The translations under genes and the position numbers were made by a program. A DNA stretch of 64,000 bases. Source: Alkaliphilus pronyensis (GTDB taxonomy: Bacteria > Bacillota > Clostridia > Peptostreptococcales > Natronincolaceae). Under the pieces are notes generated by a model. It had not been told where the DNA came from, ran no database searches, and saw only the letters and a program-made list of their open reading frames with translations. Where the stretch lies: contig NZ_WBZC01000013.1 of NCBI RefSeq assembly GCF_009017275.1, positions 1 to 64,000 of the forward strand. Direction: 5' to 3'. Positions within the stretch are counted from its first letter, which is position 1. Each line of letters opens with the position of its first letter. Below, piece after piece: positions 10,935 to 63,600 of the stretch.

Positions 10935-11467
10935 AATAGTTCCTGAATTTTCTCTTCAATATAAGCTGTAATAGGTTTGTCCCCTATTGATGCTTTGTTT
11001 TCTTCATATAAGTCTGGTTTTACTCTAAAGAAATTGATAATTAGCTTGTTATCAATAATCTTATATTCATCAGTGTGACTTGGTAAAAAAATCAACTCAA
11101 GCTCTTCATGGCTGATATTCTTATTATGGCTATTTATTTTTTCAACAAGTGAATCTAGGTTTAAAGTTTTTAATGGAGCCACCATCAACTTAGTATAATC
11201 TAAATCCTCCATCATCCACATATTATTATTCCAAAAAACCCTTTCCTTTTTGTTATCACTGTGGAAGATTTCTCTATTGGATATTGCACTTAAAGCTCTT
11301 CTTACAGATTCACTATTAAATTCATTATCATAAATATAGCTCATTTCTGGTTGCTGTGCCTGACTGTTAAGATAAGCCTCTCCAACCTTTTCCCTTTCAC
11401 TTGTTGCTTGCCAGTAGTAAAGCATACCTTCAATTACATCCAGCTTGATTTTTATCCTTTTAACCAT
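10925..11467 (-). CDS. Conserved protein of unknown function (TDE1712-like)
   Basis: A 180-residue soluble protein with no signal peptide or membrane segment. The sequence has a distinctive centre with NREIFHSDNKKERVFWNNNM and YTKLMVAPLKTLNLD. It resembles, from memory only, proteins labelled TDE1712 family, which have no assigned function. An in-frame GTG at 11476 overlaps the GAGGAG ribosome site, so ATG at 11467, eight bases after that site, is chosen. It is a single-gene unit with its own terminator, between fchA and a flavin-reductase gene. Nothing visible ties it to either neighbour. Confidence 0.75.
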   Translation of the reverse strand: MVKRIKIKLDVIEGMLYYWQATSEREKVGEAYLNSQAQQPEMSYIYDNEFNSESVRRALSAISNREIFHSDNKKERVFWNNNMWMMEDLDYTKLMVAPLKTLNLDSLVEKINSHNKNISHEELELIFLPSHTDEYKIIDNKLIINFFRVKPDLYEENKASIGDKPITAYIEEKIQELLEG

Positions 11468-11550
11468 AACAAACACTCCTCTACTTTAAGACTCTTAATA
11501 AGTATATACTTAATACATTACTAAATCAATTTCAACAAAGGTATTGATTT

Positions 11551-12264
11551 TTAGAAGGGACTATTCTTTCCCATTAACCATCCTTTTTTTCTCCAATATT
11601 CCTTGTCTGCATTACCATCCTTATAGCCATTGATCATTCTTCTCATCATCATAAACATTATTCTAGTAAATATCTGTGGTCTCAATAAATCTCTTTTTTC
11701 TAACATAAAATAAAAGGCTCTTGACTTTTTTCTTAATAATCTACTAAGCTTTTCCTTCTTAACATCACTCATATCTTCCCAGTTCTTGGCAGCCATGCTG
11801 AAGCCACACTTTATAACCCTTTTAACTCCCCAAAACTTGAGATTCCTTGCAATAGGCTTAATGGCATAGCTGGTACCTGTACCTGCAGTAGTAGATATAA
11901 CCATTGCTACCTTCGAAAACATTTCCTCCATAGGCCTATGGGGAAGATACATATAGGCAAGGTGATCTAAAAATGCTTTCATTCCACCACTTTCAGCTAA
12001 AACATATACTGGTGAGGTTAAAATTAAACCATCTGCCTCCCTCATGGCTTGGACAATTGGTTGAATGTGTTTTGAGTGGGGGCATTTGTCTTCACTAACT
12101 TCAAAGCAGGTATAACAGCCACAGCAAAAGCTAGGCATATCAGCAGGTAGAAAAAACTCATCAAACTGTATACTTGTAGCTTTTAATAATTCCTCTTTAA
12201 TTATTTCAGTAGCTTTATAGGTATTTCCTCTTCGAGGACTACCATGAATTATACAGACCTTCAA
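11551..12264 (-). CDS. NADPH-dependent FMN reductase-like flavoprotein with Cys motif
   Basis: A 237-residue flavodoxin-fold oxidoreductase. The FMN phosphate loop HGSPRRGNTY is at the N terminus. CCGCYTCFEVSEDKCPH is the Cys-rich insert typical of iron-sulfur-linked members of this family, and TSPVYVLAESGGMKAFLDH is the second flavin-contact region. The C-terminal ~50 residues are basic and Met-rich. GTG at 12273 lacks a ribosome site of its own. TTG at 12264 has GAGGTG at good spacing and gives the usual MKVCIIHGSPR start. It follows the two-gene nucleoside-gate pair by about 40 bases and probably shares their transcript. The electron acceptor is unknown. Confidence 0.85.
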   Translation of the reverse strand: MKVCIIHGSPRRGNTYKATEIIKEELLKATSIQFDEFFLPADMPSFCCGCYTCFEVSEDKCPHSKHIQPIVQAMREADGLILTSPVYVLAESGGMKAFLDHLAYMYLPHRPMEEMFSKVAMVISTTAGTGTSYAIKPIARNLKFWGVKRVIKCGFSMAAKNWEDMSDVKKEKLSRLLRKKSRAFYFMLEKRDLLRPQIFTRIMFMMMRRMINGYKDGNADKEYWRKKGWLMGKNSPF

Positions 12265-35573: not shown

Positions 35574-36284
35574 TTATTCAGTTATTTTATCTTCTAGCAT
35601 TTCTCTATACTTTTGGATTTTATCAATACCGCTCCTAGCTTTTCCTGGGGGTTCATCTATAACGATTTCCTTCTTTAAGGTTAAGGGTGGCCCCTCCAGA
35701 ACATGTATATAATTAGCCATACACAGGGCTTCATCAGCATCATGGGTAATCAAAATAAAAAGCCCTTTTTTTCTATGCCAATAATCTATAATATAGTCCA
35801 TTAACGTTTTCTTCATGTTTAAATGTAAACCCTTAAAGGGTTCGTCCATAATAAGAATATCTCCATCATATGCCAAAGCCCTAGCAATAGACACCCTCTG
35901 CTTCATACCACCACTTAATTCTTTAGGATAATAGTTTTTAAACTCCTCTAAATCCACTAAAGACAGATAATTATCTACAATGCTATCAATATCTCCCTTG
36001 TGATTGTAGCTTTCTAAAACAAATTTTATGTTTTTTTCTACAGTTGCCCAGGGCAGTAGCCTTTCTTCTTGAAAAATATAAGAAAAGCTTTTGTTATTAA
36101 AGCCTTGTATATCTCCCGAATCATAGGGAATAACACCTGCTAAAATGTTTACTAGGGTTGTTTTTCCACATCCAGAGGGGCCAAATAGACAGTGGATTCC
36201 TTCAGAAGAAAAATCCATGTTAAGGCCACTAATAACCTTTTGCTTACCGTAGCTTTTATGTAAGCTCTTAATTTTTAGCTCCAT
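35574..36284 (-). CDS. NitT/TauT-type ABC importer, ATP-binding subunit
   Basis: A 236-residue SsuB/TauB-like ATPase: Walker A GPSGCGKTTLVN, signature LSGGMKQRVSIARA, Walker B ILIMDEPFKGLH, H-loop THDADEA. GLH replaces the usual GALD after Walker B, so the D-loop is altered. ATG at 36284 with AAAGGG eight bases upstream is preferred to GTG at 36293. It is the last gene of the SBP-permease-ATPase operon that begins at 38103 behind a Fur-like box. It and the 39059 ATPase are paralogues. Confidence 0.92.
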   Translation of the reverse strand: MELKIKSLHKSYGKQKVISGLNMDFSSEGIHCLFGPSGCGKTTLVNILAGVIPYDSGDIQGFNNKSFSYIFQEERLLPWATVEKNIKFVLESYNHKGDIDSIVDNYLSLVDLEEFKNYYPKELSGGMKQRVSIARALAYDGDILIMDEPFKGLHLNMKKTLMDYIIDYWHRKKGLFILITHDADEALCMANYIHVLEGPPLTLKKEIVIDEPPGKARSGIDKIQKYREMLEDKITE

Positions 36285-36302
36285 ATAACTCACCCTTTAC
36301 AG

Positions 36303-37079
36303 TCAACTATTTATCTTAGAATACTCTTTCATATTCCTCTTTGTAGTAAATCTTTTAAAAATCCCCTCAAACAACATACTTAGTATTATCACCACAAAGG
36401 TCCAAGCAAATAGCATGCTAGAGTCTAAATATACCTTAGCACTGTATAAATGACTTCCTATTGCATTTTGTGGATGACTTAATACCTCGGCAGCCACGCT
36501 TACCTTCCAGCCTAGGCCTAGGCAAGTAATACAGGCAGCAAGCAAATAGGGAACAATTGTAGGTAGATATATTCTCCTTAAAATAATCAGCTTCTTTATA
36601 CGGTATACCTTAGACATTTCTATAAGCTTATGATCTACATTACGGACTCCAGCAACTACATTTGTCCAAATTATAGGAAAGCACATTAAGAAGCAAATAA
36701 AAATTGGAACATTGGAAGAGGTAAACCAAATAAGTGCAATAATTATAAAGGATAATACTGGAGTAGATTTTAAAATCGTCATGAAGGGATTAATTATATC
36801 ATACACATAATCATTTAAAGCAGAAATTATACCGACTATAAGACCTAACAATATAGATATACTAAGTCCAGCAACTACACGAAAAATTGAGTAGGCGATG
36901 GTTCTCCAAAAAACATTAGAAAAAATCATTTGCCCTAATGTAGTAATTACCTGTAAAGGGGACGGAACATAAATATCCCGTCCAACTACTATATGGGTAA
37001 GCTGCCATATGCTAATCCAAAATATAAAGACTAAAATCTTATTTAGTGATTTTTTATCTTTTATAGTAGAAGCCTTCAT
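36303..37079 (-). CDS. NitT/TauT-type ABC importer, permease subunit
   Basis: A 258-residue inner-membrane permease with about six helices. The EAA-type coupling loop is recognisable in LIEMSKVYRIKKLIILRRIY followed by LPTIVPYLLAACI. It resembles SsuC/TauC. ATG at 37079 has GGAGGAAA eight bases upstream and lies inside the end of the substrate-binding-protein gene (26-base overlap). A TTG at 37112 is less likely. It pairs with the flanking genes to form one importer. Confidence 0.92.
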   Translation of the reverse strand: MKASTIKDKKSLNKILVFIFWISIWQLTHIVVGRDIYVPSPLQVITTLGQMIFSNVFWRTIAYSIFRVVAGLSISILLGLIVGIISALNDYVYDIINPFMTILKSTPVLSFIIIALIWFTSSNVPIFICFLMCFPIIWTNVVAGVRNVDHKLIEMSKVYRIKKLIILRRIYLPTIVPYLLAACITCLGLGWKVSVAAEVLSHPQNAIGSHLYSAKVYLDSSMLFAWTFVVIILSMLFEGIFKRFTTKRNMKEYSKINS

Positions 37080-38103
37080 TTGGTAGCTTTCCTCCAACCG
37101 ATTTTGGTTCAAAATTAAATAAAACCTGGTAAAAATCCTCTAGGTAGGACTTGGCCTCGTCCCCCTCTATGAACACAATATTGCTATAGGGAATTGCTTT
37201 CTTAGCTATAGCAGCCTTAGGTAAAATACCATGCTTCTCAATTAACTCAGATGCCTTATCAATATTACTATTTACAAAGGCTACTGAGCTTTTATACTCA
37301 TCTAAAAATCCATTAAATGCTTCCTTGTTTTCTTCTACAAAGGCTTTTTGAACTATTATAGCTCCCATTGGTAGCTTGCTATCCTCTGGTGTTACTTCAT
37401 TCCATTCCTTAGTTATATCTAGGGCTATTTTCAAGTCTGTATTCTTCATCATTGCTGTAGTAACATGGGGCTGAGGTAATAATGCTATGTCAACATCTCC
37501 TGCGGCTAAAGCAGCTGCCAACTCAGCATGCTGCAGCTTATATTCTAACATAACATCCTTGCCTACAACTAATCCATTTTCATTTAATATGTATTGAATT
37601 ACAAAGTCAGGTGCAGAGCCCTTACCACTAGTATACAGTGTCTTACACCTTAGGTCTTCAACTGAGTTAATGGTATCTCCATTTTCCACTACATAAAGTA
37701 CTCCTAGGGTGTTTACCGCTGCCAATTGAACAGCTCCTTCGGTTTTGTTGTGTAAAACTAAGGCTAGGTTAGTAGGTACTGCTGCCACATCCACTTCTCC
37801 ACTAATAACCTTACCAACTAAATCATCAGGGCTTCCTAGTACAGTAAACTCATAATCTATAGTAGACTCGTTGGTTTCACTTTTCTCCATTAAATCCACC
37901 ATGCCCATTCCTGTAGGACCCTTTAATGTTGCTATTTTAAGCTTTGGCTTTTCTTCTGCTTCCATGGAGCTATCATCAGCTACCTCCTGCTGTATTTCTT
38001 CAGTCTGTTCTCCTGTGTCTGTAGTACAACCTACAGCTACAGTAACTAGAACTAGTATCATTAGTAATGCTAAAACTGTTTTTGACTGCCATTTATTTAA
38101 CAT
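37054..38103 (-). CDS. NitT/TauT-type ABC importer, substrate-binding lipoprotein
   Basis: A 349-residue lipoprotein with a signal peptide ending in a VAVGC lipobox, a short acidic linker and a two-lobed NMT1/THI5-like binding domain beginning LKIATLKGPTGMGMVDLM. Later motifs TSGKGSAPDFVIQYIL and GDVDIALLPQPHVTT fit this family, which carries sulfonates, nitrate, pyrimidine precursors and similar small anions. The ligand is not assignable. AAAGGAGG precedes the ATG. A sigma-A promoter and a Fur-like palindrome are 22-70 bases upstream, so metal-dependent control is likely. Confidence 0.9.
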   Translation of the reverse strand: MLNKWQSKTVLALLMILVLVTVAVGCTTDTGEQTEEIQQEVADDSSMEAEEKPKLKIATLKGPTGMGMVDLMEKSETNESTIDYEFTVLGSPDDLVGKVISGEVDVAAVPTNLALVLHNKTEGAVQLAAVNTLGVLYVVENGDTINSVEDLRCKTLYTSGKGSAPDFVIQYILNENGLVVGKDVMLEYKLQHAELAAALAAGDVDIALLPQPHVTTAMMKNTDLKIALDITKEWNEVTPEDSKLPMGAIIVQKAFVEENKEAFNGFLDEYKSSVAFVNSNIDKASELIEKHGILPKAAIAKKAIPYSNIVFIEGDEAKSYLEDFYQVLFNFEPKSVGGKLPNEGFYYKR

Positions 38104-38124
38104 ATTCTCAACAACCTCCTTTAT

Positions 38125-38139
38125 TGATAATGATTGTCA
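38125..38139. promoter_or_regulatory. Fur-family (7-1-7) operator
   Basis: TGATAATGATTGTCA fits the TGATAAT-N-ATTATCA 7-1-7 consensus with one mismatch, and the flanks extend the palindrome by one more pair. It lies between the -10 box and the start of the substrate-binding-protein gene. Fur, Zur or PerR could use it. Confidence 0.7.
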
Positions 38140-38144
38140 ACTTC

Positions 38145-38173
38145 ATAATACCACTGCCACTATTTGTTGTCAA
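38145..38173 (-). promoter_or_regulatory. Sigma-A promoter of the ABC importer operon
   Basis: On the minus strand TTGACA (38173-38168), 17 bases, and TATTAT (38150-38145), followed at once by the Fur-like box. It sits 42 bases ahead of the lipoprotein gene start. Confidence 0.75.
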
Positions 38174-38178
38174 CTTTT

Positions 38179-38807
38179 CTAAAATATTATTTTATTCCCT
38201 TTAAGTGTTAGATATTCCTCTTCTTGAAGTTCCTTAAATATCCTATATAGAGATGCCCTGCTGATTCCCAAATAATCTGCCAGCTGGCATTTATTTAAGG
38301 AAAGTGTAACTATATTCTGGTTCCTTTGCTGATACTTTAGCTGTTGGAGGTACTCCTTAACCCGTTCACTTATCTTATCATGGGTAAAGCATTCAACCCT
38401 TTGGTTTAAAAATAAATACGCTGGCCTACGTAGCTTAAATAATTTTGCAATATAACTTCATCCATTTTAAAAAGCTTTAATAAGCAACTTTCCGTAATAA
38501 AAAGTACAACTGCTTCACTATTGGTGTATAGATAGGTGACATTTTCAAGCTCTTTCTGGAATAAATATGGGATTCCGAAAATACTTCCAGCCTTAATTCT
38601 ATTCATTATTATCTTTTTACCAGTTAAAAGATTTTTTTGCACTTCAATTTTTCCCTTTAAAACTATACCTATCTCATTACTAAAATCCGCTATGTACTGT
38701 CCCTTCTTATATTCTATAATTCTATAATTAATATTTTTTATATATAGCTTAAGCTTCTCTGGAGTTACGTCCTTGAACAAGAAGCATTTTTTTAATGTAT
38801 TATACAT
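38179..38807 (-). pseudogene. Crp/Fnr-type regulator, frameshifted before the HTH
   Basis: The first 133 codons (38406-38807) encode a cyclic-nucleotide-binding-type sensor domain (KGQYIADFSNEIGIVLKGKI, then AGSIFGIPYLF) and stop at TAA after VGQRIYF. A -1 shift at the T5 run just before that stop restores a perfect continuation to 38179. It reads on through FLNQRVECFTHDKISERVKE and the helix-turn-helix LNKCQLADYLGISRASLYRI, ending GNKIIF. So it is either a recent 1-base deletion, a sequencing indel, or frameshift decoding on TTT before a stop codon. The gene lies between two related ABC importer operons and would be their natural regulator. Confidence 0.82.
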
Positions 38808-38884
38808 AGATTTTTCCTTCTCTCTTAAAGTATATCAATTATCATCATTAATTTGTATAGATTTATTCCGTAAAATAAATAAAA

Positions 38885-38910
38885 ACACAGGGGGACGGTT
38901 CTTCTGTGTT
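38885..38910. repeat. REP-like palindromic unit
   Basis: ACACAGGGGGACGGTTCTTC followed by TGTGTT is a close variant of the units at 49217, 49249 and 49308. It stands in the gap between the Crp-like pseudogene and the second ABC operon. Confidence 0.75.
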
Positions 38911-38977
38911 AGGCACAAAAAACGACAACAATATTCATAATTTTTATAATACATAGTCTAACTATAGAAGTTTTTAA

Positions 38978-39007
38978 TTGGTAATAATAAAGCGATTGTA
39001 ATATAAT
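38978..39007 (+). promoter_or_regulatory. Possible promoter of the second ABC operon
   Basis: TTGGTA, 18 bases, TATAAT, ending 52 bases before the ATPase gene at 39059. The -35 match is moderate. Confidence 0.4.
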
Positions 39008-39058
39008 TCATTATGCCTTCTTAGTATTAAGCAAGTTCTTTCCCAGAAAGGAGTTACC

Positions 39059-39886
39059 ATGTTGATAAATAGCAATGCCAAAGCTATAGAGCTACCCTTG
39101 CAGGCAACAGTAGCTAGTAATGAAAAATTTATTGTTAAGGGGTTAAATCATAGATACAGTGTTAAAAAGGACAAAAGGATAGATGTATTAGATAATATTG
39201 ATTTCACAGTAAAAGAAAAGGAATTTTTAGCAATAGTAGGCCCTAGTGGCTGTGGCAAAAGCACTTTGCTAAATATTATGTCGGGGCTTCTAAAGCCAAC
39301 TGGTGGTGAAATACTACTTGAAGGTGAAGCCTTAAGCTCCACTACTAAGCGTATTGGCTACATTTCACAAACAGATACTTCGATGCCCTGGAGAACTGCT
39401 ATATCAAATGTTGAGCTAGGAATGGAGATTAAGGGAGTTTCTAAGAAAAAGAGAAGAGAAATTGCCCTTAAGCTTATGCAAGATGCAGTGCTGGCAGGAT
39501 TTGAAAAGAGCTTTCCCTATGAGCTTTCAGGTGGGATGAAGAAAAGAGTAGATATTATAAAAGTACTAGCTATTGACCCAGAAATAATATTCATGGATGA
39601 ACCCTTTGGTGCCTTAGATGTTTTCACTAGGGAAATGCTTCAAAACTATATTCTTTCTTTATGGGAGAAAACTAAAAAAACAATAATTTTTATTACACAT
39701 GATTTAACAGAGGCTATTACCCTTGCAGGCCGAGTAATAATTTTAACTAATCGCCCAGCAACAGTTAAATCAGAGTATAAAATTGACTTGCCACGACCTA
39801 GATCTTCCTTTGACATAAGGTATGACAAAAAATTTATTGAGCTGCATAAAAGGATTTGGGAGGATTTAAAGTCAGAGGTCAGGTAG
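39059..39886 (+). CDS. NitT/TauT-type ABC importer, ATP-binding subunit (second system)
   Basis: A 275-residue SsuB/TauB-like ATPase with an unusual ~25-residue N-terminal extension (AKAIELPLQATVASNEKF). Walker A GPSGCGKSTLLN, signature LSGGMKKRVDIIKVLA, Walker B IIFMDEPFGALD and H-loop ITHDLTEA are all intact. In the signature, KKRVDI replaces the usual QQRVAI. It leads a plus-strand operon with a (frameshifted) permease, a binding lipoprotein and a TudS-related protein. GAAAGGAG precedes the ATG. Confidence 0.92.
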   Translation: MLINSNAKAIELPLQATVASNEKFIVKGLNHRYSVKKDKRIDVLDNIDFTVKEKEFLAIVGPSGCGKSTLLNIMSGLLKPTGGEILLEGEALSSTTKRIGYISQTDTSMPWRTAISNVELGMEIKGVSKKKRREIALKLMQDAVLAGFEKSFPYELSGGMKKRVDIIKVLAIDPEIIFMDEPFGALDVFTREMLQNYILSLWEKTKKTIIFITHDLTEAITLAGRVIILTNRPATVKSEYKIDLPRPRSSFDIRYDKKFIELHKRIWEDLKSEVR

Positions 39887-39911
39887 CAAGAAATCAATTG
39901 GAGGACGGTAC

Positions 39912-40717
39912 ATGAAGGACATTAAGCTTATAAAGCAAGGAAAGGCCTTAGGTATTAGGCTATTGTTAATTTGTGGTTTTTTAATATGCTGGGAGCTATT
40001 TACTTCTACAGGTTTTCTTGACCCCTTTTACACCAGTAAACCATCACTTATATATAAGGATTTGCAGGAGTTTTATAATAGCGGAGCTTTAATGAAGCAC
40101 ACAGCTATAACTTTGCAGGAGGCTATATGGGGCCTAATAATAGGTACAGCTATTGGAATAAGTGTAGGGTTTCTTCTCGGTCTTGTTAACATACTGGGTA
40201 GAATATTTGAACCAATAATCACTGCCCTCTACGGAATACCTAAGCTAGCCTTAGCACCTATATTTGCTATATGGTTTGGACTTGGAATAAAATCAAAATA
40301 GTGCTATCAAGCCTACTAGTATTCTACCTTGTTTTCTTTAGTACATACGCAGATGTTAAGGGTGTAGATAATAATTTAATAGCTTCAGTTAAATTAATGG
40401 GGGATACTAAGCTACAAGTGTTATACAAGGTAACTTTACCCTCCTGTGTCCCCTGGATACTATCGGGTATTCGTGGAGGACTAGGTGCCTCTCTAATTGG
40501 GGCAATTGTTGGAGAATACATGGGTGCTAGCGCTGGCCTTGGCTGGATGATATCATATGCAACTTCATTCTTTAAAATTCAGCGTGTAATGTCCTGTATA
40601 TTTATACTCTTGCTAATTGGTATAAGCTTTAATTTCTGCTTAAAGGTGGCTGAGGGTTGGCTGCTTCGTTGGCGTCCTAACGCAAGCTTAAATACTACAA
40701 ATGAAGAAGCAATATAA
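39912..40717 (+). pseudogene. NitT/TauT-type ABC permease, frameshifted in the middle
   Basis: Codons from 39912 give the N-terminal half up to IFAIWFGLGIKSK, stopping with TAG at 40299-40301. A -1 shift at the AAAA just before that stop continues as IVLSSLLVFYLVFFSTYADV, the expected next residues of a TauC/SsuC permease, and runs to 40717 with the EAA-type loop intact (LMGDTKLQVLYKVTLPSCVP). Everything else looks functional. As in the Crp-like gene, the fault is a single base in a short homopolymer next to a stop codon. Loss would disable this importer unless the frame is recoded or the base is a sequencing error. Confidence 0.85.
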
Positions 40718-40744
40718 ATAATAATTGATAAGGAGATGAGTGTT

Positions 40745-41779
40745 TTGAAAAAAATTATAGTAAGTTTTTTAGTGTTAATTTTAGTAGCATCAACTTTAGT
40801 GGGCTGTGGGGAAAAAACGCCTGAAGCAAATGAAGCCTCAAACCCAAATAATGAAGAGCAGCAGCTAGAAAAAATAGTTGTATCAGAACTAAGAAGTGAA
40901 TTTTGGCTTCCTGTTTATCTTGCCGATGAGTTGGGCTATTTTAAGGAAGAGGGTCTTGATGTGGAGTTTGTTACCTATAAGGATGGTCCCCTTGCCTTCC
41001 AGGGAATGCACGCAGGAGATTCACAATTTTGCATGCTAAGCTCTGAGCCAGTTCTAAGGGCATATGATCAGGGAAAAGAGTCTAAAATCATTTTATCAAC
41101 CCTAACCAATAAACCATATATGTTTGTAACAAGTCCAGAAATTAAATCTGTTAAGGATTTGAAGGGTAAAGTAATATTTGGTGGTATGCCAGGATCAGCC
41201 CCCTACTCCTTTGTTGCTTCAATATTAGCCAGTGAAGGCTTAGACCCTGAAGCAGATGTAACATGGGCAAATTTGGAATACGGTGCTTCATTAGCTGCCC
41301 TTGAAAGTGGACAGATTGTAGGTAGTTACATTAGATCTACAGCAAAAACTGAAGTAGCCCAAATGGGAGGAAATATACTTGTTGATGCCACAATCGCTGA
41401 TTCCCATAAAAAACTATACGGATCAGATAAGTATGAATCTACTATTGTCACAGTAACTAAGAAATATGCTGAAGAAAACCCAGAAACTGTTCAAAAGTTT
41501 ACCAATGCAGTAGTTAGAGCTATAATTTGGCAAACAGAGAATACTGATGAAGAGGTTGCAAGGGTTGCTACTCCAGTGTTCCCTGGCAAAAGCTACATAA
41601 ATGCAAAGCTGATTGAGTATCTAAGAAGCTCATTATCAGTAGATGGAAATATTTCAGAGGAAGGTCATAATACAATTATAGACTTTTGCTTAAAGGAAGG
41701 CTTGATTTCTAGTCCAATACCCTATGAAGATGTAATTGATACATCATTTGTTAAGAAGTCATACCAGCAGTTTAAGTAA
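40745..41779 (+). CDS. NitT/TauT-type ABC importer, substrate-binding lipoprotein (second system)
   Basis: A 344-residue lipoprotein: a signal peptide from MKKIIVSFLVLILVASTLVG ending at Cys, an Asn/Glu-rich linker, then an NMT1/THI5-like domain with VVSELRSEFWLPVYLADELG and GYFKEEGLDVEFVTYKDGPL. The ATG at 40736 abuts AAGGAG, so TTG at 40745, nine bases after it, is chosen. The N-lobe pattern is that of binding proteins for pyrimidine precursors, sulfonates and aromatic or sulfur heterocycles. Its operon partner downstream is a putative desulfidase, which makes a sulfur-containing ligand plausible. Confidence 0.9.
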   Translation: MKKIIVSFLVLILVASTLVGCGEKTPEANEASNPNNEEQQLEKIVVSELRSEFWLPVYLADELGYFKEEGLDVEFVTYKDGPLAFQGMHAGDSQFCMLSSEPVLRAYDQGKESKIILSTLTNKPYMFVTSPEIKSVKDLKGKVIFGGMPGSAPYSFVASILASEGLDPEADVTWANLEYGASLAALESGQIVGSYIRSTAKTEVAQMGGNILVDATIADSHKKLYGSDKYESTIVTVTKKYAEENPETVQKFTNAVVRAIIWQTENTDEEVARVATPVFPGKSYINAKLIEYLRSSLSVDGNISEEGHNTIIDFCLKEGLISSPIPYEDVIDTSFVKKSYQQFK

Positions 41780-41799
41780 TGAAAAGGTAGGATAAAGCC

Positions 41800-42303
41800 A
41801 TGAAGCGAAATAAGCGTATTGTAATAGTTGCCCATTGTATTCTTAATGTAAATTCAAAGGTTGTAGGGTTAGCCCAATACGGTGGAGCCATTAGAAAACT
41901 TGTTACTGATTATGTAAATGAAGGCATAGGAATTATTCAACTACCCTGCCCCGAAATAACTTTTTTGGGCTTGGAGAGATGGGGTATGACTAAAAATCAA
42001 TATGACACCCCCAGCTATCGTAAACACTGTAAAAAGCTAATAGAACCATATGTAGAGCAAATAATAGAGTACTTGAATAATGGATATATTATAGAAGAAA
42101 TTGTAGGTATTGACGGTAGCCCAAGCTGTGGAGTGAGCTTGACCTGTTCTGGATACAAAGGCGGAATGGTAGATGAAGGACATCACCAATGCCATGAAAT
42201 TAGTGGTAGTGGTATAATGATAGAAGAGCTTAAGGGGCTTCTTAAGGAGCACAACGTAAATATTCCTATGTCAGCAATAAGTGAAAAGGATGAAATTGAG
42301 TAA
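41800..42303 (+). CDS. TudS-related putative desulfidase (CD3072-like)
   Basis: A 167-residue protein resembling the CD3072 group of TudS-related proteins. Three Cys positions fit a [4Fe-4S]-type site: HCILNVNSKV near the start, LPCPEITFLGLERWGM near 48, and GIDGSPSCGVSLTC near 107. TudS enzymes remove sulfur from thiolated bases such as thiouracil using an iron-sulfur cluster. The gene is the last of the second ABC importer operon, 21 bases after the lipoprotein gene, and is followed by a terminator. Uptake of a thio-compound followed by desulfuration is the simplest reading; the true substrate is unknown. Confidence 0.82.
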   Translation: MKRNKRIVIVAHCILNVNSKVVGLAQYGGAIRKLVTDYVNEGIGIIQLPCPEITFLGLERWGMTKNQYDTPSYRKHCKKLIEPYVEQIIEYLNNGYIIEEIVGIDGSPSCGVSLTCSGYKGGMVDEGHHQCHEISGSGIMIEELKGLLKEHNVNIPMSAISEKDEIE

Positions 42304-43953: not shown

Positions 43954-45498
43954 ATGAATAAGAGAAGGAAGTCTTTAGTGATTGCAGGTATAAGTGTAGG
44001 CTCCCACGCTCTAAAGATAAAAATCGTTGAGGTAACAGAAAAAGAGGAAATTATAATACTAGAAAAGGTTAGTAAAAAAACCACTTTAGGAAGAGACACA
44101 TTCTCAAAGGGAAAAGTAAGCTATGGGGTGGTTGATGAGGTTTGCCAAGTTCTAAAAGGCTTTAAGAGATTAATGAACACCTACAAGGTACAAACCTATC
44201 AAGCTTTTGCCACTAGTGGTATTAAAGAAGCAGAAAACAGAGATTATATATTAAATCAGATTAAATCAAAAACGGGATTAAATGTAGAGCTAATCAATAG
44301 CTCCCATAAAAGATTTCTTACCTATAAGGCTGTTAGAGAAAAGCTAACTAATCACCAACAGCTACGAAGGGAAGGAACTATGATTTTAGATGTTGGCTCA
44401 GGTAGTATTGAGCTTTCTATCTATAGTAATGGTAATTTAACCTTTAGTCAAAACTTAAAGCTTGGCTCCCTTAGGCTGAAGGAGCTACTGCTAAGTCTTG
44501 AGGACAAGACCTTGAACTTTCCTAAGGTTTTAGAGGATTATATAAGAAGCAATACGGATATACTATGGAAAACATTTGATTTTAATGAACCTATTAATCA
44601 CTTTATTTTATTAGGTGATACCATCAAGGATATATGTAGCATTTGCAATAGCCATGACTACTCTATAAATAAAACCCGTTTTTTAAACATGTACCATGAG
44701 CTAATTAACAGGCCCTCTCATAAAGCTATGTATCGTCGCAATGTTACACAGGAAGGTGCCTATATTCTTTTGCCCACCATGATACTTGCAAAAACTTTTT
44801 TAAACTTAACCTCTTCTTCAAAAATTTACACCCCTTTAGTATCCTTAGAGGATGGTATAGTTTCTAATATTATAGATGAAAGGCTTAACACAAGTAGAAG
44901 GCAAGAGTTTCTTAAGGACACCTATTCTCTAGTAAAAACAATGGCAGCAAAATACCGTTATGACGAAAAGCATGCCCATGAGGTAGAAAAAAATGCCTTA
45001 ATAATGTTTGATGCACTAAAGAAGCACCACGGTTTAGGGGATCAGGAAAGATTATTACTGCAATTGGCTTCGGTTCTTCATGATATAGGAAAGTTTATTA
45101 ATATGAGTAAGCATTATAATCATTCCTACGACATTATTATTGCCTCTAATATAATGGGTATTTCCCAAGAACAGCTGGCGATTATAGGAAACATAGCCAA
45201 GTATCACAGCGGCTTATTCCCTAAAATGTCCCATGAAAGCTTTCAGCAGCTAAGCTTCGAAAATAGAGTTGTTGTTGCCAAGCTAGTATCCATAATTAAA
45301 ATCGCTAATGCTCTTGATCGAAGTCACCAGCAAAAGATAAAGGATATAAAAATAAGAGTTCATGATAAAAAAATGTTTATAAAAGCCATTGCTAAAGGTG
45401 ATACTCTACTGGAGGAATGGACCTTTGAAAACAATTCCTTCTTTTTTGAGGATGTTTTTGGTATTACACCTATTCTAAGTATAGAAAGGGAGATATAA
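43954..45498 (+). CDS. Degenerate Ppx/GppA-like protein with HD domain
   Basis: A 514-residue relative of exopolyphosphatase/pppGpp phosphohydrolase. It keeps the second nucleotide-loop motif (MILDVGSGSIELSIYSNGN) and a C-terminal HD domain (LHDIGKFINMSKHYNHSYD). Two catalytic features are lost. The N-terminal IDLGSNS motif is IAGISVGSHALK, with no Asp, and the catalytic-Glu segment (SGEKEA in the neighbour at 47685) is SSHKRF. So the Ppx site is probably inactive while the HD site may still work, or the protein may regulate its partners. It is the first gene of the operon; the stop is two bases before ppk1. Confidence 0.88.
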   Translation: MNKRRKSLVIAGISVGSHALKIKIVEVTEKEEIIILEKVSKKTTLGRDTFSKGKVSYGVVDEVCQVLKGFKRLMNTYKVQTYQAFATSGIKEAENRDYILNQIKSKTGLNVELINSSHKRFLTYKAVREKLTNHQQLRREGTMILDVGSGSIELSIYSNGNLTFSQNLKLGSLRLKELLLSLEDKTLNFPKVLEDYIRSNTDILWKTFDFNEPINHFILLGDTIKDICSICNSHDYSINKTRFLNMYHELINRPSHKAMYRRNVTQEGAYILLPTMILAKTFLNLTSSSKIYTPLVSLEDGIVSNIIDERLNTSRRQEFLKDTYSLVKTMAAKYRYDEKHAHEVEKNALIMFDALKKHHGLGDQERLLLQLASVLHDIGKFINMSKHYNHSYDIIIASNIMGISQEQLAIIGNIAKYHSGLFPKMSHESFQQLSFENRVVVAKLVSIIKIANALDRSHQQKIKDIKIRVHDKKMFIKAIAKGDTLLEEWTFENNSFFFEDVFGITPILSIEREI

Positions 45499-45500
45499 CT

Positions 45501-47663
45501 ATGGCAGAAGTTAATTTAAATAAAAGTGAACACTATATTAATAGAGAGCTTAGTTGGTTGGAATTTAACTATAGGGTTTTGCAGGAGGCAAAAAACAACA
45601 AAAACCCATTACTTGAGCGTTTGAAGTTTTTATCTATAGTCTGCTCAAACCTTGATGAATTCTTTATGATTAGGGTAGCCTCCTTAAAGGATCAGGTTCT
45701 TGCTGGTTATAATAAGCCTGACCCCTCTGGTCTTACTCCGAAAAAACAGCTTAAGGAGATTTCTATAGAGACCCATAAAATGATTGAACAACAGTATCGT
45801 CTTTTTAACAGGTCCATAGTACCTAATTTAAAAAACCATAACATATATCTTTTATCAAAGGACAGTCTAAATAAAGAAGATGTGGTATTTTTAGAGGATT
45901 ATTTTAAGAACGTTGTCTATCCTGTTTTAACACCAATGGCAGTTGATTCTAGTAGACCCTTCCCTTTAATTTTGAACAAAAGCTTAAATATCGCTGTGCT
46001 AATTGAAGATAAGTCTAATGAAGGTGAGTTTATTTTTGCAACTGTACAGGTCCCCTCTCTCCTTCCTCGCTTCAAAGAGCTACCCAGTGGTGATGGTCAG
46101 TCTAAGCGCTTTATACTTTTAGAAGAGATTATTTCCCTCTTTATTGAAGAACTGTTTTTAGGACATCCTGTAGTTTGCTCTTACCCTTACCGTATCACAA
46201 GAAATGCTGATTTAACCATTGAAGAGGAAGAAGCAGAGGATCTGCTTGTAGAAATACAGAGATCATTAAAAAATAGAAAAAGAGGCTCTGCTATTAGGTT
46301 AGAAATTCATAAGGCAATGGATGAAAGATTAGTCCACATATTAAAAACTGCTTTAGAGATTCACGAGGGAGAAATATATTATATTGATGGACCTTTAGAT
46401 TTAACTTTCCTCATGAAATTATCTAGCTTAGATGGATATGATTTCTTAAAATATACCAACTATACCCCTATAATCCCTAAGGATTTTATAGATAGTGATG
46501 ATATATTTGAGATTATTTCGAGAAAAGATATTCTTCTACATCACCCCTATGATAGCTTTGACCCTGTAGTAGATTTTGTCAAAAAATCCTCACTTGACCC
46601 ACAGGTGCTGGCCATTAAACAAACCCTCTACCGGGTAAGTGGTGATTCCCCCATTGTACAGGCTTTGATAGACGCTGCAGAACGAGGAAAGCAGGTTACT
46701 GTACTATTGGAGGTTAAGGCTCGTTTTGATGAGGAAAACAATATTCAATGGGCAAAAAAGCTTGAAAAAGCTGGCTGTCACGTTATATATGGCTTAGTGG
46801 GACTTAAAACCCACTGTAAGGTTACACTTGTTGTTAGAATGGAGGAAAGCAGAATTAAGAGGTATGTACACTTAGGTACTGGTAACTATAATGATATTAC
46901 CGCTAGGCTATATACCGATATAGGTTTATTTACCTGCAAGGATACCTTTGGAGCAGATGCATCTGGCATCTTTAATATGTTATCGGGCTACTCAGATCCC
47001 CCAGACCTCTACAAGCTTGAAGTTGCACCCTTTAACCTTAGGGAAAAGTTTTTGGAGTTAATTGAAGCTGAAATTCATCATGCCCAGCAGGGCAAAAAAG
47101 CAAAAATTATTGCAAAAATGAACTCTCTTGTTGATATAGCCATTATTAAAGCTTTATATAGGGCATCAATGGCGGGTGTGAAAATAGATCTGATTATAAG
47201 GGGTATTTGCTGTCTAAAGCCAGGTATTCCTGATGTTAGTGAAAACATTCGCGTTTTTAGTATTGTTGGTAGATTTTTAGAGCATAGTAGAATTTTTTAC
47301 TTTCATAACGATGGTTCGGAGGAAATATATCTTTCCAGTAGTGATTGGATGCAGAGGAATTTGGACAGAAGAATAGAGATTTTATTTCCTGTTGAGGATG
47401 AGGCTATTAAACATAGAATTTTAGAACTGTTTAAAATCTCTATATTAGATACAGTTAAAGCAAGACGCTTGAATTCTGATGGTAAGTATGTAAAAATTGA
47501 TAAAAGAGGTAAAAAGACCCTCGACTCCCAAAACTATTTCTGTAGACTTGCAGAAAAGGAAATGAAAAAGCAGAAGAAGGAAAAGTTAAACCCGGTTCTT
47601 GAACCTATTACCTCTAGTGAAACCATTAGAGAGGATATAATTATTGAACCAAAAACCAGTTAA
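45501..47663 (+). CDS. ppk1: Polyphosphate kinase 1
   Basis: A full-length, 720-residue Ppk1. The start YINRELSWLEFNYRVLQEA and FLSIVCSNLDEFFMIRVA are the N-domain signature. The first catalytic His is in GLKTHCKVTLVVR near residue 435, followed by VHLGTGNYNDITARLYTDIG. The second phosphorylation-site region is EHSRIFYFHNDG with SSDWMQRNLDRRIE. The enzyme makes long polyphosphate chains from ATP. It is flanked by two Ppx-type genes in one operon, so synthesis and breakdown are co-expressed. GGGAGATATAACT precedes the ATG. Confidence 0.97.
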   Translation: MAEVNLNKSEHYINRELSWLEFNYRVLQEAKNNKNPLLERLKFLSIVCSNLDEFFMIRVASLKDQVLAGYNKPDPSGLTPKKQLKEISIETHKMIEQQYRLFNRSIVPNLKNHNIYLLSKDSLNKEDVVFLEDYFKNVVYPVLTPMAVDSSRPFPLILNKSLNIAVLIEDKSNEGEFIFATVQVPSLLPRFKELPSGDGQSKRFILLEEIISLFIEELFLGHPVVCSYPYRITRNADLTIEEEEAEDLLVEIQRSLKNRKRGSAIRLEIHKAMDERLVHILKTALEIHEGEIYYIDGPLDLTFLMKLSSLDGYDFLKYTNYTPIIPKDFIDSDDIFEIISRKDILLHHPYDSFDPVVDFVKKSSLDPQVLAIKQTLYRVSGDSPIVQALIDAAERGKQVTVLLEVKARFDEENNIQWAKKLEKAGCHVIYGLVGLKTHCKVTLVVRMEESRIKRYVHLGTGNYNDITARLYTDIGLFTCKDTFGADASGIFNMLSGYSDPPDLYKLEVAPFNLREKFLELIEAEIHHAQQGKKAKIIAKMNSLVDIAIIKALYRASMAGVKIDLIIRGICCLKPGIPDVSENIRVFSIVGRFLEHSRIFYFHNDGSEEIYLSSSDWMQRNLDRRIEILFPVEDEAIKHRILELFKISILDTVKARRLNSDGKYVKIDKRGKKTLDSQNYFCRLAEKEMKKQKKEKLNPVLEPITSSETIREDIIIEPKTS

Positions 47664-47684
47664 TTAAACAGAAGGTGACACAAC

Positions 47685-49208
47685 ATGGATAAAAAAATAG
47701 CTATTATAGACTTAGGCTCCAACTCTTTAAGAATGATTATAATGAGACTTTATGAGGATGGCTCCTATAAATTGATGGATCAAGTGAAGGATATGGTACG
47801 ATTAAGTGAAGGCATGGGAAATGATATGCTTCTCAAGCCCCAGCCTATGGAAAGAACATTAAATGCTTTAAAATTGTTCAAAAGACTAATTAAGGTACAT
47901 GCAGTAAAAGAAGTTTATCCTATTGCCACTGCTGCCATTAGAAATGCAAGCAATAAACTGACCTTTTTGAATAGGGTTAAAGCAGAGACCGGGCTTCAAT
48001 TCCAGATTATTTCTGGTGAAAAGGAGGCCTATTATGGTTACCTTGGAATAATTAACACCTTAGATATAAAGGAAGGCATAACAATAGATATTGGTGGTGG
48101 TAGTACTGAAATAGGCTGGATTGAAAATAGAAGGCTTGAAAAATCTGTAAGTATTCCTTATGGTTCTATGAGTCTAACTGAAATGTTTTTGTTTAAAGAT
48201 GCTATTGAACCACAGGCTATAAAATCCTTAGAAGACTTTATTAAAAAGCAGCTGAAGCAAGTTAAATGGCTTAAGGATACAAAGGATCTGCCTGTTATTG
48301 GCTTAGGAGGTACAGCACGAACCTTAGCAAAAATAAATAAACAGGAGATTAAGTTCCCTTTAGTTAGTCTACACAATTATCAAATGACCTACAAGGAGGT
48401 GCTTTCTGTTTACAAGAAGGTAAATCACGGTCCTAAGGCTGATCTAAAGGAGGTTGCAGGTATATCAAAGAACCGTATTGATATTATTACTGCTGGAATT
48501 GTGCCTATTAAGTTATTGATGGAACATATTGACTCCCAAAGGCTTATTATCAGTGGTAGCGGCTTGAGGGAAGGAGTGTTTTATGAGAATTATCTGCAAG
48601 AAACCCAGAAGGGAGAAATCTTGGAGGATGTTCTCTTTCATAGCATTGACAATATACTTAAAAACTATGATATGAACTTAAAACATTGCCATCAAGTTAA
48701 AAATTTGGCTATGGCTTTATTTGATGAAACCCAAGAGCTACATGGATTAAGTCATAATGAGAGAAAGCTTTTAGAGGTTTCCGCTCTACTTCATGACATT
48801 GGTATGCACTTAGATTATTACAATCATCATAAGCATGGGTTTTATCTAACTTTAAATGTTCCATTAAACGGCTTAAGGAACAAAGAGAAGGTCATGTGTG
48901 CTTTTTTAGTAGCTATGCATCGTGAAAACAGCTTTAAAGAAAATTGGGAAGATTTCAACATGCTAATTGATAAGGATGATTATAAAATCATTAAAAAATT
49001 AAGTGTTTTTCTTAAAATAGCAGAAAAGCTAGATAGAGGGGAATCCAGCAGCGTAGAAAAGCTTAGCTGTAGTATTAATAAAGATTCCTTTAACCTTTTG
49101 ATTAAATCCTCTATTCCTGTTGCCCTAGAGGTTTCAGGTGCCATGGAATATCAAAATCTATTCAAAAAGATTTATAAGAAAAACCTTACTATAGAAGTTT
49201 TGAAATAA
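47685..49208 (+). CDS. ppx: Exopolyphosphatase / pppGpp phosphatase with HD domain
   Basis: A 507-residue canonical Ppx/GppA protein: AIIDLGSNSLRMIIM at the N terminus, catalytic Glu in IISGEKEAYYGYLG (residues 109-120), DIGGGSTEIGWIE, ISGSGLREGVFYE, and a C-terminal HD domain (LHDIGMHLDYYNHHKHGF). It removes terminal phosphates from polyphosphate and possibly from pppGpp. It follows ppk1 by 21 bases and is the intact counterpart of the degenerate protein two genes upstream. A cluster of REP-like palindromes follows. Confidence 0.95.
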   Translation: MDKKIAIIDLGSNSLRMIIMRLYEDGSYKLMDQVKDMVRLSEGMGNDMLLKPQPMERTLNALKLFKRLIKVHAVKEVYPIATAAIRNASNKLTFLNRVKAETGLQFQIISGEKEAYYGYLGIINTLDIKEGITIDIGGGSTEIGWIENRRLEKSVSIPYGSMSLTEMFLFKDAIEPQAIKSLEDFIKKQLKQVKWLKDTKDLPVIGLGGTARTLAKINKQEIKFPLVSLHNYQMTYKEVLSVYKKVNHGPKADLKEVAGISKNRIDIITAGIVPIKLLMEHIDSQRLIISGSGLREGVFYENYLQETQKGEILEDVLFHSIDNILKNYDMNLKHCHQVKNLAMALFDETQELHGLSHNERKLLEVSALLHDIGMHLDYYNHHKHGFYLTLNVPLNGLRNKEKVMCAFLVAMHRENSFKENWEDFNMLIDKDDYKIIKKLSVFLKIAEKLDRGESSSVEKLSCSINKDSFNLLIKSSIPVALEVSGAMEYQNLFKKIYKKNLTIEVLK

Positions 49209-49215
49209 CCAGAGA

Positions 49216-49339
49216 CGACACAGGGGGACGGTTCTCTTGTGTTCTTTCGACACAGGGGGACGGTTCTCTTGTGTTCTTTCTTATAGTTTTAGTAGCTCTA
49301 TCAATTTAAAGAACACAAGAGAACCGTCCCCCTGTGTCG
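49216..49339. repeat. Cluster of three REP-like palindromic units
   Basis: Two head-to-tail 32-base units (49217-49248 and 49249-49280) read GACACAGGGGGACGGTTCTC then TTGTGTTCTTTC. A third copy lies inverted at 49308-49339. The direct and inverted copies can pair into a long hairpin between the convergent ppx and CCG-protein genes. It may stop transcription from both sides. Related units occur at 38885 and 52155. Confidence 0.92.
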
Positions 49340-52113: not shown

Positions 52114-52182
52114 AGGAACACAAGAGCACATGACAACTGTGTGTCATCCCTTGAGAACACAAGAGAACCGTCCCCCTGTGTT
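52114..52182. repeat. REP-like units after the Wadjet operon
   Basis: A complete inverted unit (GAACACAAGAGAACCGTCCC then CCTGTGTT, 52155-52182) is preceded by a degenerate one beginning GGAACACAAGAGCACATGAC, with an ATGACA/TGTCAT hairpin. It lies just after the jetD stop and may serve as its terminator. Confidence 0.8.
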
Positions 52183-61982: not shown

Positions 61983-63167
61983 TTATAATTTAAATAATAT
62001 ATTTGTGAATAGTATCATGAAAAATAATGCAAAGGGATAGGTGGCACCATATCCCGCTGTTACTTCATCACTATCTAAAGCCTCTATTGAAGCTGCTAGC
62101 CCTGGGGTACTGGTCATACCTCCACATATGCCTCCTATTAAATAAATAATTGGAAGCCTTAAAATCTTTGTGCCCACTAGGTATCCTACCAATATACTTA
62201 TTGCAGCAGTTGTTGTTCCAATTAAGATTAGCTGTCCACCAGTTGTTCTAATAAGGTTTAATGCATTGTAACCATAGTTAAGCCCCACAATGGATAGAAA
62301 CATATTTAGGGAAATATCTCTAACAACACATAGTTGCCTTTCAATCATATTGAAATTTAGAAATCCTATTCTTTTTATGTTTCCTAATATTAATGCACTG
62401 ATTAGAACACCACCAGTAGCTCCCAGAGAGAAATATCCTAGATAGCTACCTAAATAAATATTGAGATTTCCAATCAGTATTCCAATTATACAAACGAAAG
62501 CAAAGGATACAACACAAAAATTACATTCATTTATATTTATTCTTTTGGGTTCATCATCTTTTATTATATTACTTTTAGTTACTGTAGTCTTATTTTTCTT
62601 TGCCAAAAGTTGTACAAATAGAATTACAGCTATTACACCAGGTATGTATGATATTGAATACCCCAAGCCTACCATTGCCTCCGAGTTCCCACCTAAGCCC
62701 CTTGCTGACTCTAAGGCTGTGGCTAATCCTGGAGAGCTGGTTAATGCTCCTGCGTAGGTCCCAATAATGGATACTTTAATATCCTCTGTTAACAAGCTAA
62801 TTAACAGCCATGAGCTTAATGCCCCAGCCAAAGTTATTACAAAGGCCAGTATTACAAAGCTATAACCTCTTGTTTTAATTATTGATATGATGTTTTTTGA
62901 TGCTAATAGGCCTACTGAAGCTATAAAGCCAATTAAACTGAGTCTAAATAATTCATTAGAAATAAATCTGCCATTTAATAGCGGAGAGTTAGGGGCTTCC
63001 ATTTGTAAGTACAGAGTTATAAAATAGCTGATAATTATTCCTACAAATAAACCACCTGAACTTCCTAGTTTTATGTTTTTGTAATCTATCCTACCAAGGA
63101 AATGCCCTAAAAATATGCTAAGAAACATTAGTAAAAGGGGGTTAGATAAAACTTCTAGTATGTACAA
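61983..63167 (-). CDS. AspT/YidE-type membrane exchanger
   Basis: A 394-residue membrane protein with about ten helices and two copies of the YidE/YbjL duplication motif: [20 protein letters not shown] and [20 protein letters not shown]. AspT exchanges aspartate for alanine. This protein lacks the central TrkA-C domains of AspT, so it is a short version. It is the first gene after a cobalamin riboswitch and is followed at once by sucCD, which suggests a dicarboxylate such as succinate as substrate, though a role tied to B12 is also possible. The start is TTG at 63167 with GGAGAG upstream. Confidence 0.87.
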
Positions 63168-63268: not shown

Positions 63269-63339
63269 CATTATTAATTAAGTAGAAGTTTAATTGTCTA
63301 CTAATATAACACCTCCCCATCCTCGTGAGTAATAATCAG

Positions 63340-63505
63340 CGCTTTTCCCATTGGCAGGTCTCCTGACTAAGGATTACAAAGCATTACACCTTCCCATACT
63401 TCAGTACAGTGGTATCTGTAAGCTTCTATCCATTACAGTGGCGGGACCGTGTCGGATTTTCACCGTTCTTCCCTTTTAAACAATCTTAAAATAAGATTAT
63501 ACCAA
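63340..63505 (-). promoter_or_regulatory. Cobalamin (B12) riboswitch
   Basis: Read on the minus strand, the conserved blocks occur in the right order. They are AAAAGGGAAGAACGGTGAAA with AATCCGAC, CGGTCCCGCCACTGTAA (the B12 box) at 63435-63456, and AGTCAGGAGACCTGCC at 63368-63353. A hairpin terminator follows downstream. It should switch off the AspT-like/sucCD/yitT-like operon when adenosylcobalamin is plentiful. Confidence 0.93.
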
Positions 63506-63600
63506 TAGTAATTATTAAATTTTAAAATTGATGATTATTTGTAGAGTAAAAACTTCTTCCCTCTTTTTTATTTTGTACTTAGATCAAAGCAGTCTATAGG

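Follow-up and report, generated by a model that had tools for sequence, protein, structure and literature searches.

Genes of the locus and two split reading frames

We analyzed a 64,000-nucleotide stretch of Alkaliphilus pronyensis DNA (the window; contig C5:1-64000, NZ_WBZC01000013.1, of a 3.06-Mb genome in 94 contigs) that carries two ATP-binding cassette (ABC) importers, here called systems A and B, a Crp-like regulator gene, and a gene for a TudS-type desulfidase. All of these lie where a first-pass annotation, made by a model from the sequence alone, had put them. System B and tudS span positions 39059 to 42303 on the plus strand, and system A spans positions 35574 to 38103 on the minus strand. 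The genes are as follows:

39059-39886, plus strand: ATP-binding subunit of system B (Pfam ABC_tran, 5.1e-31)
39912-40301, plus strand: permease of system B, N-terminal part
40271-40717, plus strand: permease of system B, C-terminal part, in another frame (BPD_transp_1, 3.4e-15)
40736-41779, plus strand: lipoprotein binding protein of system B, NMT1/THI5 fold (NMT1, 1.2e-26)
41800-42303, plus strand: CD3072-type TudS desulfidase (NF045597, 192.9 bits; cut-off 130)
38406-38807, minus strand: Crp-like regulator, N-terminal part, cNMP-binding fold (Pfam cNMP_binding, 1.6e-8)
38179-38430, minus strand: Crp-like regulator, C-terminal part, in another frame (HTH_Crp_2, Pfam 4e-11)
37054-38103, minus strand: lipoprotein binding protein of system A (NMT1_2, 3.8e-8; Phosphonate-bd, 6.6e-10)
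36303-37112, minus strand: permease of system A (Pfam BPD_transp_1, 1.8e-17); the reading frame opens at TTG
35574-36293, minus strand: ATP-binding subunit of system A (Pfam ABC_tran, 2.2e-27)

With an NMT1-type binding protein, a BPD_transp_1 permease, and an ABC ATPase, system B belongs to the NitT/TauT class. The model of its binding protein (predicted local distance difference test, pLDDT, 87.8) was closest in fold to 3qsl (VIA, Z 31.2), a match that was not decisive for the ligand: that of 3qsl is not known, and the other near folds bind pyrimidine, thiamin, bicarbonate, taurine, and sulfonates. System A is likewise a NitT/TauT-type ABC importer; the nearest solved chain to its binding protein is 3hn0 (2.8e-24), and its permease reading frame runs into the end of the gene for the binding protein, an arrangement also seen in three related loci (L184, L186, and L188). 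Described earlier as twins, the two importers share 36% identity between their ATPases and 21% between their binding proteins, and the latter value ruled out a duplicated pair.

Two genes of the locus are split, which the first-pass annotation had overlooked. The Crp-like gene has both the cNMP-binding and the HTH_Crp domain of the Crp/Fnr family in two frames, with 58% (N-terminal) and 65% (C-terminal) identity to the intact 211-residue regulator of locus L185. The permease reading frame of B is not intact either, its two frames being 63% and 65% identical to residues 15 to 145 and 145 to 279, respectively, of the intact L037 permease. At each break (38406-38430 and 40271-40301), a homopolymer lacks one base compared with the intact orthologue. 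Because conservation is about equal in the two halves of each gene, the frameshifts are probably recent or sequencing errors in A/T runs. If they are real, the locus could be decaying, with importer B and the Crp-like regulator dead in this strain; two homopolymer frameshifts within 2 kb, with no clear third among the window reading frames looked at in a check that was not systematic, would fit such decay. The even conservation of the halves and the open genes around them make it unlikely.

CD3072-type tudS genes and their importer partners

The gene that ends importer B had been called TudS-type, and we found its product to pass NF045597 over positions 1 to 147 of 148. The model of the protein (pLDDT 91.4) matched the TudS structure 6z92 with a Z score of 10.0 and a root-mean-square deviation of 3.4 over 134 aligned residues, while the next other fold reached Z 6.1. 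In 40 aligned CD3072-type rows, Cys13, Cys50, Glu52, Ser107, and Cys110 are invariant, and Ser109 occurs in 90% of 20 rows, with Thr in some. The invariant cysteines, Glu, and Ser match by motif Cys10/43/104, Glu45, and Ser101/103 of TudS, which form the reference active-site set in the available text of PMC10611767; RudS mutants, in that of PMC11417400, are a source for the same Cys/Glu/Ser set. In the mixed alignment, the canonical second Cys and the Glu fell in a shifted column, and this pair was matched by the shared C-P-E motif instead. A further cysteine, Cys77, is invariant in the 40 CD3072-type rows and is Ala in 20 of the 20 canonical rows compared. Because the host genome also holds a canonical DUF523 gene (C22:22047), the CD3072-type enzyme may serve a substrate other than 4-thio-uridine monophosphate.

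To describe the neighborhoods of such genes, one genome per species was scanned, which gave 490 CD3072-type tudS relatives; the counts below rest on the best 80 of these. A partner was scored when a binding protein or an energy-coupling factor (ECF) S component lay within 3 kb of tudS, and the importer references for the flank scan were neighborhoods of CD3072-type relatives. A partner was present at 69 of the 80 loci (SBP3 36, ECF S 18, NitT 12, UgpB 1, ECF plus NitT 1, and ECF plus SBP3 1), so that the partners are drawn from four unrelated importer classes. The flanks of 4 kb adjacent to tudS were positive in 63 of 133 cases, compared with 2 of 108 segments lying 5 to 9 kb away. All 51 ABC partners share the strand of tudS (NitT 13/13, SBP3 37/37, and Ugp 1/1), as are 9 of the 18 ECF partners. 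A quick maximum-likelihood tree of 81 TudS rows requires at least 13 switches of importer class when importer-less rows are left out and 21 with them; many forks are weak, and if only branches with good support are counted, the changes required are 4 for SBP3, 3 for ECF, and 3 for NitT. Within 1.5 kb, importer families were found at 25 of 29 CD3072-type genes, a figure that is partly circular as the references were chosen from CD3072 neighborhoods and some loci come from the same genomes (among them L066, L089, L084, L105, L056, and L058), and at 0 of 30 canonical DUF523 genes, a figure that refers to these importer families only.

The pairing was also seen from the side of the importer. Among B-type binding proteins with E ≤ 1e-150, tudS adjoins all seven, the window included. 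The link between importer and desulfidase proposed for B is supported as real, with an importer partner at 69 of 80 loci, and we regard this result as stronger than the Fur result for system A given below. No description of the coupling was found in the open-licence literature searched; the enzyme fold and the CD3072/CD3073 names in NCBIfam were already known. At three loci (L124, L125, and L127), a protein of 361 to 378 residues without a Pfam match, which by eye resembles URO-D-type methyltransferases, lies directly downstream of tudS and before the SBP3 importer.

These neighborhoods bear on two other roles for the CD3072-type protein. In the first, importers leak toxic thio-analogues such as 4-thiouracil, and the co-transcribed TudS neutralizes them; C. 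difficile TudS guards against 4-thiouracil and permits its use, as stated in the available text of PMC12210855. Such protection is distinctly unlikely here, as a canonical DUF523 gene is already present elsewhere in the genome, canonical genes were never found with these importers (0/30), and tight same-strand operons with several binding-protein classes look like dedicated uptake. In the second, the protein would be not a desulfidase but a sulfur carrier or transferase that builds something from imported sulfur compounds. The [4Fe-5S] chemistry common to sulfur-inserting enzymes and the subfamily-specific Cys77 would suit this role, which we nevertheless judge quite improbable: it retains the Glu and Ser by which TudS/RudS promote the attack of water, and no biosynthetic partner is conspicuous among the listed neighbors. 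Desulfuration of a thio substrate would be the likeliest activity of the CD3072-type protein.

The Fur box of system A and its relation to system B

The regulatory elements of system A and the repeat that separates it from system B are as follows:

38145-38173, minus strand: sigma-70-type promoter of system A (TTGACA-17-TATTAT, 11/12, 17-base spacer)
38125-38139, no strand assigned: Fur box TGACAATCATTATCA of the 7-1-7 type, with one mismatch to the consensus, directly after the -10
38890-38908, plus strand: repetitive extragenic palindrome (REP)-like repeat GGGGGACGGTTCTTCTGTG between the Crp-A and B-tudS blocks (17 genome copies)

A near-consensus Fur box directly after the -10 of one importer had been reported in the first-pass annotation, and we found that, apart from this box of A, no site in the window comes within one mismatch of the consensus. 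Because 6 of 60 trials with permuted palindromes of the same composition also gave one or more such sites, the window alone would make the box only suggestive; evidence from the organism's own genome and from orthologues makes the predicted box convincing. Genome-wide, there are eight palindromes with at most one mismatch, including that of A. Four of them adjoin feoB and rubrerythrin, a Peripla_BP_2 (siderophore-type) binding protein, flavodoxin, and Fe/Mn-superoxide dismutase genes, and the remaining three (C52:8547, C35:9791, and C20:35123) have no clear iron link, C20:35123 lying near DUF2325/DUF3793 genes. Only near-perfect sites carry weight, because with as many as two mismatches allowed it occurs no more often (156 strand hits) than its reversed control (216).

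Relatives of the A binding protein at E ≤ 1e-30 occur in 110 of 198 genomes, and boxes were counted in 23 loci, namely the window, the 20 loci L183 to L202, L248, and L249. By script, a box with at most one mismatch was found within 1.2 kb upstream of A in 6 of the 23; reading by hand added the box of L196, just after a -10-like hexamer, for a total of 7 of 23 including the window. The boxes are mostly in A loci that have the Crp-like gene, 6 of 8 such loci carrying one. The scripted density was 7 boxes in 28,980 bases near A, compared with 3 in 337,202 bases elsewhere in the same loci, which is 27 times denser. Taken together, the box, the sites at iron genes of the same genome, and the partial conservation in orthologues make the predicted Fur control of system A well supported at the level of sequence.

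Flavodoxin genes adjoin A in L186, L192, and L196, and for this reason we considered uptake of riboflavin or thiamin precursors by A, tied to flavodoxin use under iron limitation. The idea is not favored because Rfam gave no riboswitch match, to the thiamin pyrophosphate or flavin mononucleotide type or to any other, across 20 loci of A and 16 of TudS; specificity for thiamine precursors, which the first-pass annotation had named as the case against itself, is thus not favored either. The sole riboswitch in the window is of the cobalamin type (63336-63521, minus strand, 110 bits), upstream of an AspT/YidE-like transporter gene (61983-63167). DUF3793 genes lie near Fur-box-like sites both in this genome (L177) and in G070 (L196). 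A bacteriorhodopsin-like gene (PF01036, 2.5e-55; L179:4534-5232, minus strand, corresponding to G000:C35 near 11033-11731), in this Clostridia-like genome, has a Fur-box-like site on either side, and one of the two is the same as that of A.

The two systems had been joined in a proposal of metal-responsive uptake of one sulfur-bearing molecule, which the comparison with other genomes speaks against. An A orthologue (at least 45% identity) and an over-cut-off CD3072-type tudS are both present in 18 other genomes, and in none of the 18 do they lie within 100 kb of each other, the nearest spacing being about 113 kb (G157). Upstream of B, a search for a Fur box gave nothing better than three mismatches. 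The divergence of both systems from the regulator gene, as originally described, is seen in the window; elsewhere the Crp-like gene goes with A, which it adjoins in 7 of 22 other loci, and not with B. In L185, L197, L201, L248, and L249, what diverges from Crp-A is not B but an operon for a CobW-like (CobW/HypB-like) GTPase, an ABC ATPase, and an SBP6 (SBP_bac_6)-like protein, an identity based on domain searches for L185 and one L201 gene and, for the rest, on likeness of the listed starts. This operon adjoins a Fur box in L185 (8954-11413) and in the other four loci; a CobW-like GTPase was not found in the host genome in a search without a positive control. Conservation of gene order in relatives, a check named in the first-pass annotation, is seen for the tudS-importer pairing, which recurs, and not for A and tudS, which never come within 100 kb in the 18 genomes.

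On this evidence, A and B appear to be two independent units and not one module, and their adjacency here is most likely due to rearrangement, not to a shared pathway. A single iron-responsive module, in which A and B flank the regulator and serve one chelating or sulfur-bearing molecule, would account for their adjacency in the window and the Fur box before A but is very improbable in view of the 18 genomes, the lack of a Fur box at B, and the company that the Crp-like gene keeps elsewhere, including the five divergent GTPase operons.

The REP-like repeat between the two blocks has 17 copies with at most two mismatches genome-wide, and the reversed pattern has none; in the window, it also occurs at 49223-49332 and 52158-52176. 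Positions 43954 to 49208 hold a polyphosphate cluster, in which a polyphosphate kinase gene is flanked by two exopolyphosphatase-like genes.

Proposed roles of the two units and comparison with known systems

We hypothesize, and consider it reasonably probable, that the locus holds two independent units, B feeding a thione compound to a [4Fe-4S] TudS and A acting as a Fur-repressed importer. For unit B, this hypothesis builds on the gene identities, the TudS fold, the catalytic residues, and the repeated importer coupling, and for unit A on the promoter and the Fur box with its partial conservation. In unit B, the lipoprotein would capture a small compound outside the cell, presumably one bearing a thione (C=S) group, and the ABC importer would carry it inward, the presumed direction of flow. 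CD3072-type TudS would then strip the sulfur as sulfide at its three-cysteine [4Fe-4S] cluster, the free iron taking the sulfur, and this hydrolytic desulfuration would yield an oxo product along with sulfide that the cell could use. The importer-tudS coupling is the ground for inferring that the imported compound is what TudS acts on. Transcription of system A would start at a promoter of its own and, under ample iron, be held down by Fur; in some relatives the Crp-like gene is its upstream companion.

Several observations weigh against this hypothesis. The TudS protein scores under the gathering score of Pfam PF04463 (28.1 versus 34.7 bits), and its profile found no chain among PDB sequences at 0.01. 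The coupling counts cover only the best 80 of the 490 relatives, and the 25/29 figure has the circularity described above. Eleven of the 80 loci have none of the scored importers; among these, L053 has two major facilitator superfamily (MFS) genes upstream, and L068 has genes for a permease and an ATPase of the ABC type. No tudS was found in the fetched flanks of distant B relatives (G027, G082, G123, G100, G146, G196, and G013), and because of these relatives importer B and the desulfidase appear separable. The tudS-less B-like importers of G146 and G027 (L251 and L252) sit with URO-D and B12-binding proteins, and in G146 (L251) with a RACo-type protein, in what are corrinoid methyltransferase-like clusters. 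A near-perfect Fur box is missing near A in 16 of the 23 loci, and the frameshifts may mean decay of the Crp-like gene and importer B.

More tentatively, CD3072-type TudS may mark a widespread anaerobic scavenging of thiones, in which the chemistry was kept while the importer partner was exchanged at least 13 times among unrelated types (polar-amino-acid-type ABC, NitT-type ABC, ECF S components, UgpB-type ABC, and perhaps MFS). If this is true, there would be an unrecognized environmental pool of thio-heterocycles from which microbes of sediments and guts draw sulfur or bases. A TudS subfamily with dedicated importers, unlike canonical TudS, would point to compounds that anaerobes actively import and desulfurate, and the several unrelated binding proteins would allow one ligand to be approached independently from different sides. 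Importer A, with its link to Fur, would be a second testable case, that of iron-controlled NitT-type uptake in Clostridia.

For system A, C. difficile ssuA2B2C2 (CD2989-2991), a "sulfonate" importer whose levels go up under low iron and when fur is mutated according to the available text of PMC6311696, offers a precedent for an iron-responsive importer of the NitT class. The likeness is one of class, a NitT-class importer in the iron/Fur stimulon; in contrast to A, no Fur box is reported there in the available text of the same source. A PF09084 search in G105 and G196, together with L247/L250, did not settle the orthology: the closest protein to A in G105 and G196 is 26% identical, and G113, G117, and G068 (same genus group) have an orthologue at 47 to 50%. 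NMT1/THI5-type importers (SsuABC, TauABC, and ThiXYZ) offer a further comparison: the three subunits and the NMT1 binding-protein fold are shared, and the differences here are scores below every listed curated NCBIfam cut-off (sulfonate, taurine, and nitrate) and the lack of a thiamin pyrophosphate riboswitch.

The main known role of TudS enzymes is to recycle or detoxify compounds of the 4-thiouracil type, as described in the available text of PMC10611767 and PMC12210855. The window protein shares with TudS (DUF523, PDB 6Z92/6Z96) the fold, the three Cys, the Glu, and the Ser, at about 16 to 22% identity, and differs from it in the invariant Cys77 and other subfamily residues, in the importer operon, and in its score below the Pfam cut-off. 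It passes NF045597, the CD3072 family of TudS-related putative desulfidases, just as the ECF neighbors in L044, L045, and L048 pass NF045596, the CD3073 family of putative ECF S components. Compared with this CD3072/CD3073 pair, the partner of tudS in the window is a NitT/TauT-type ABC importer and not an ECF S component.

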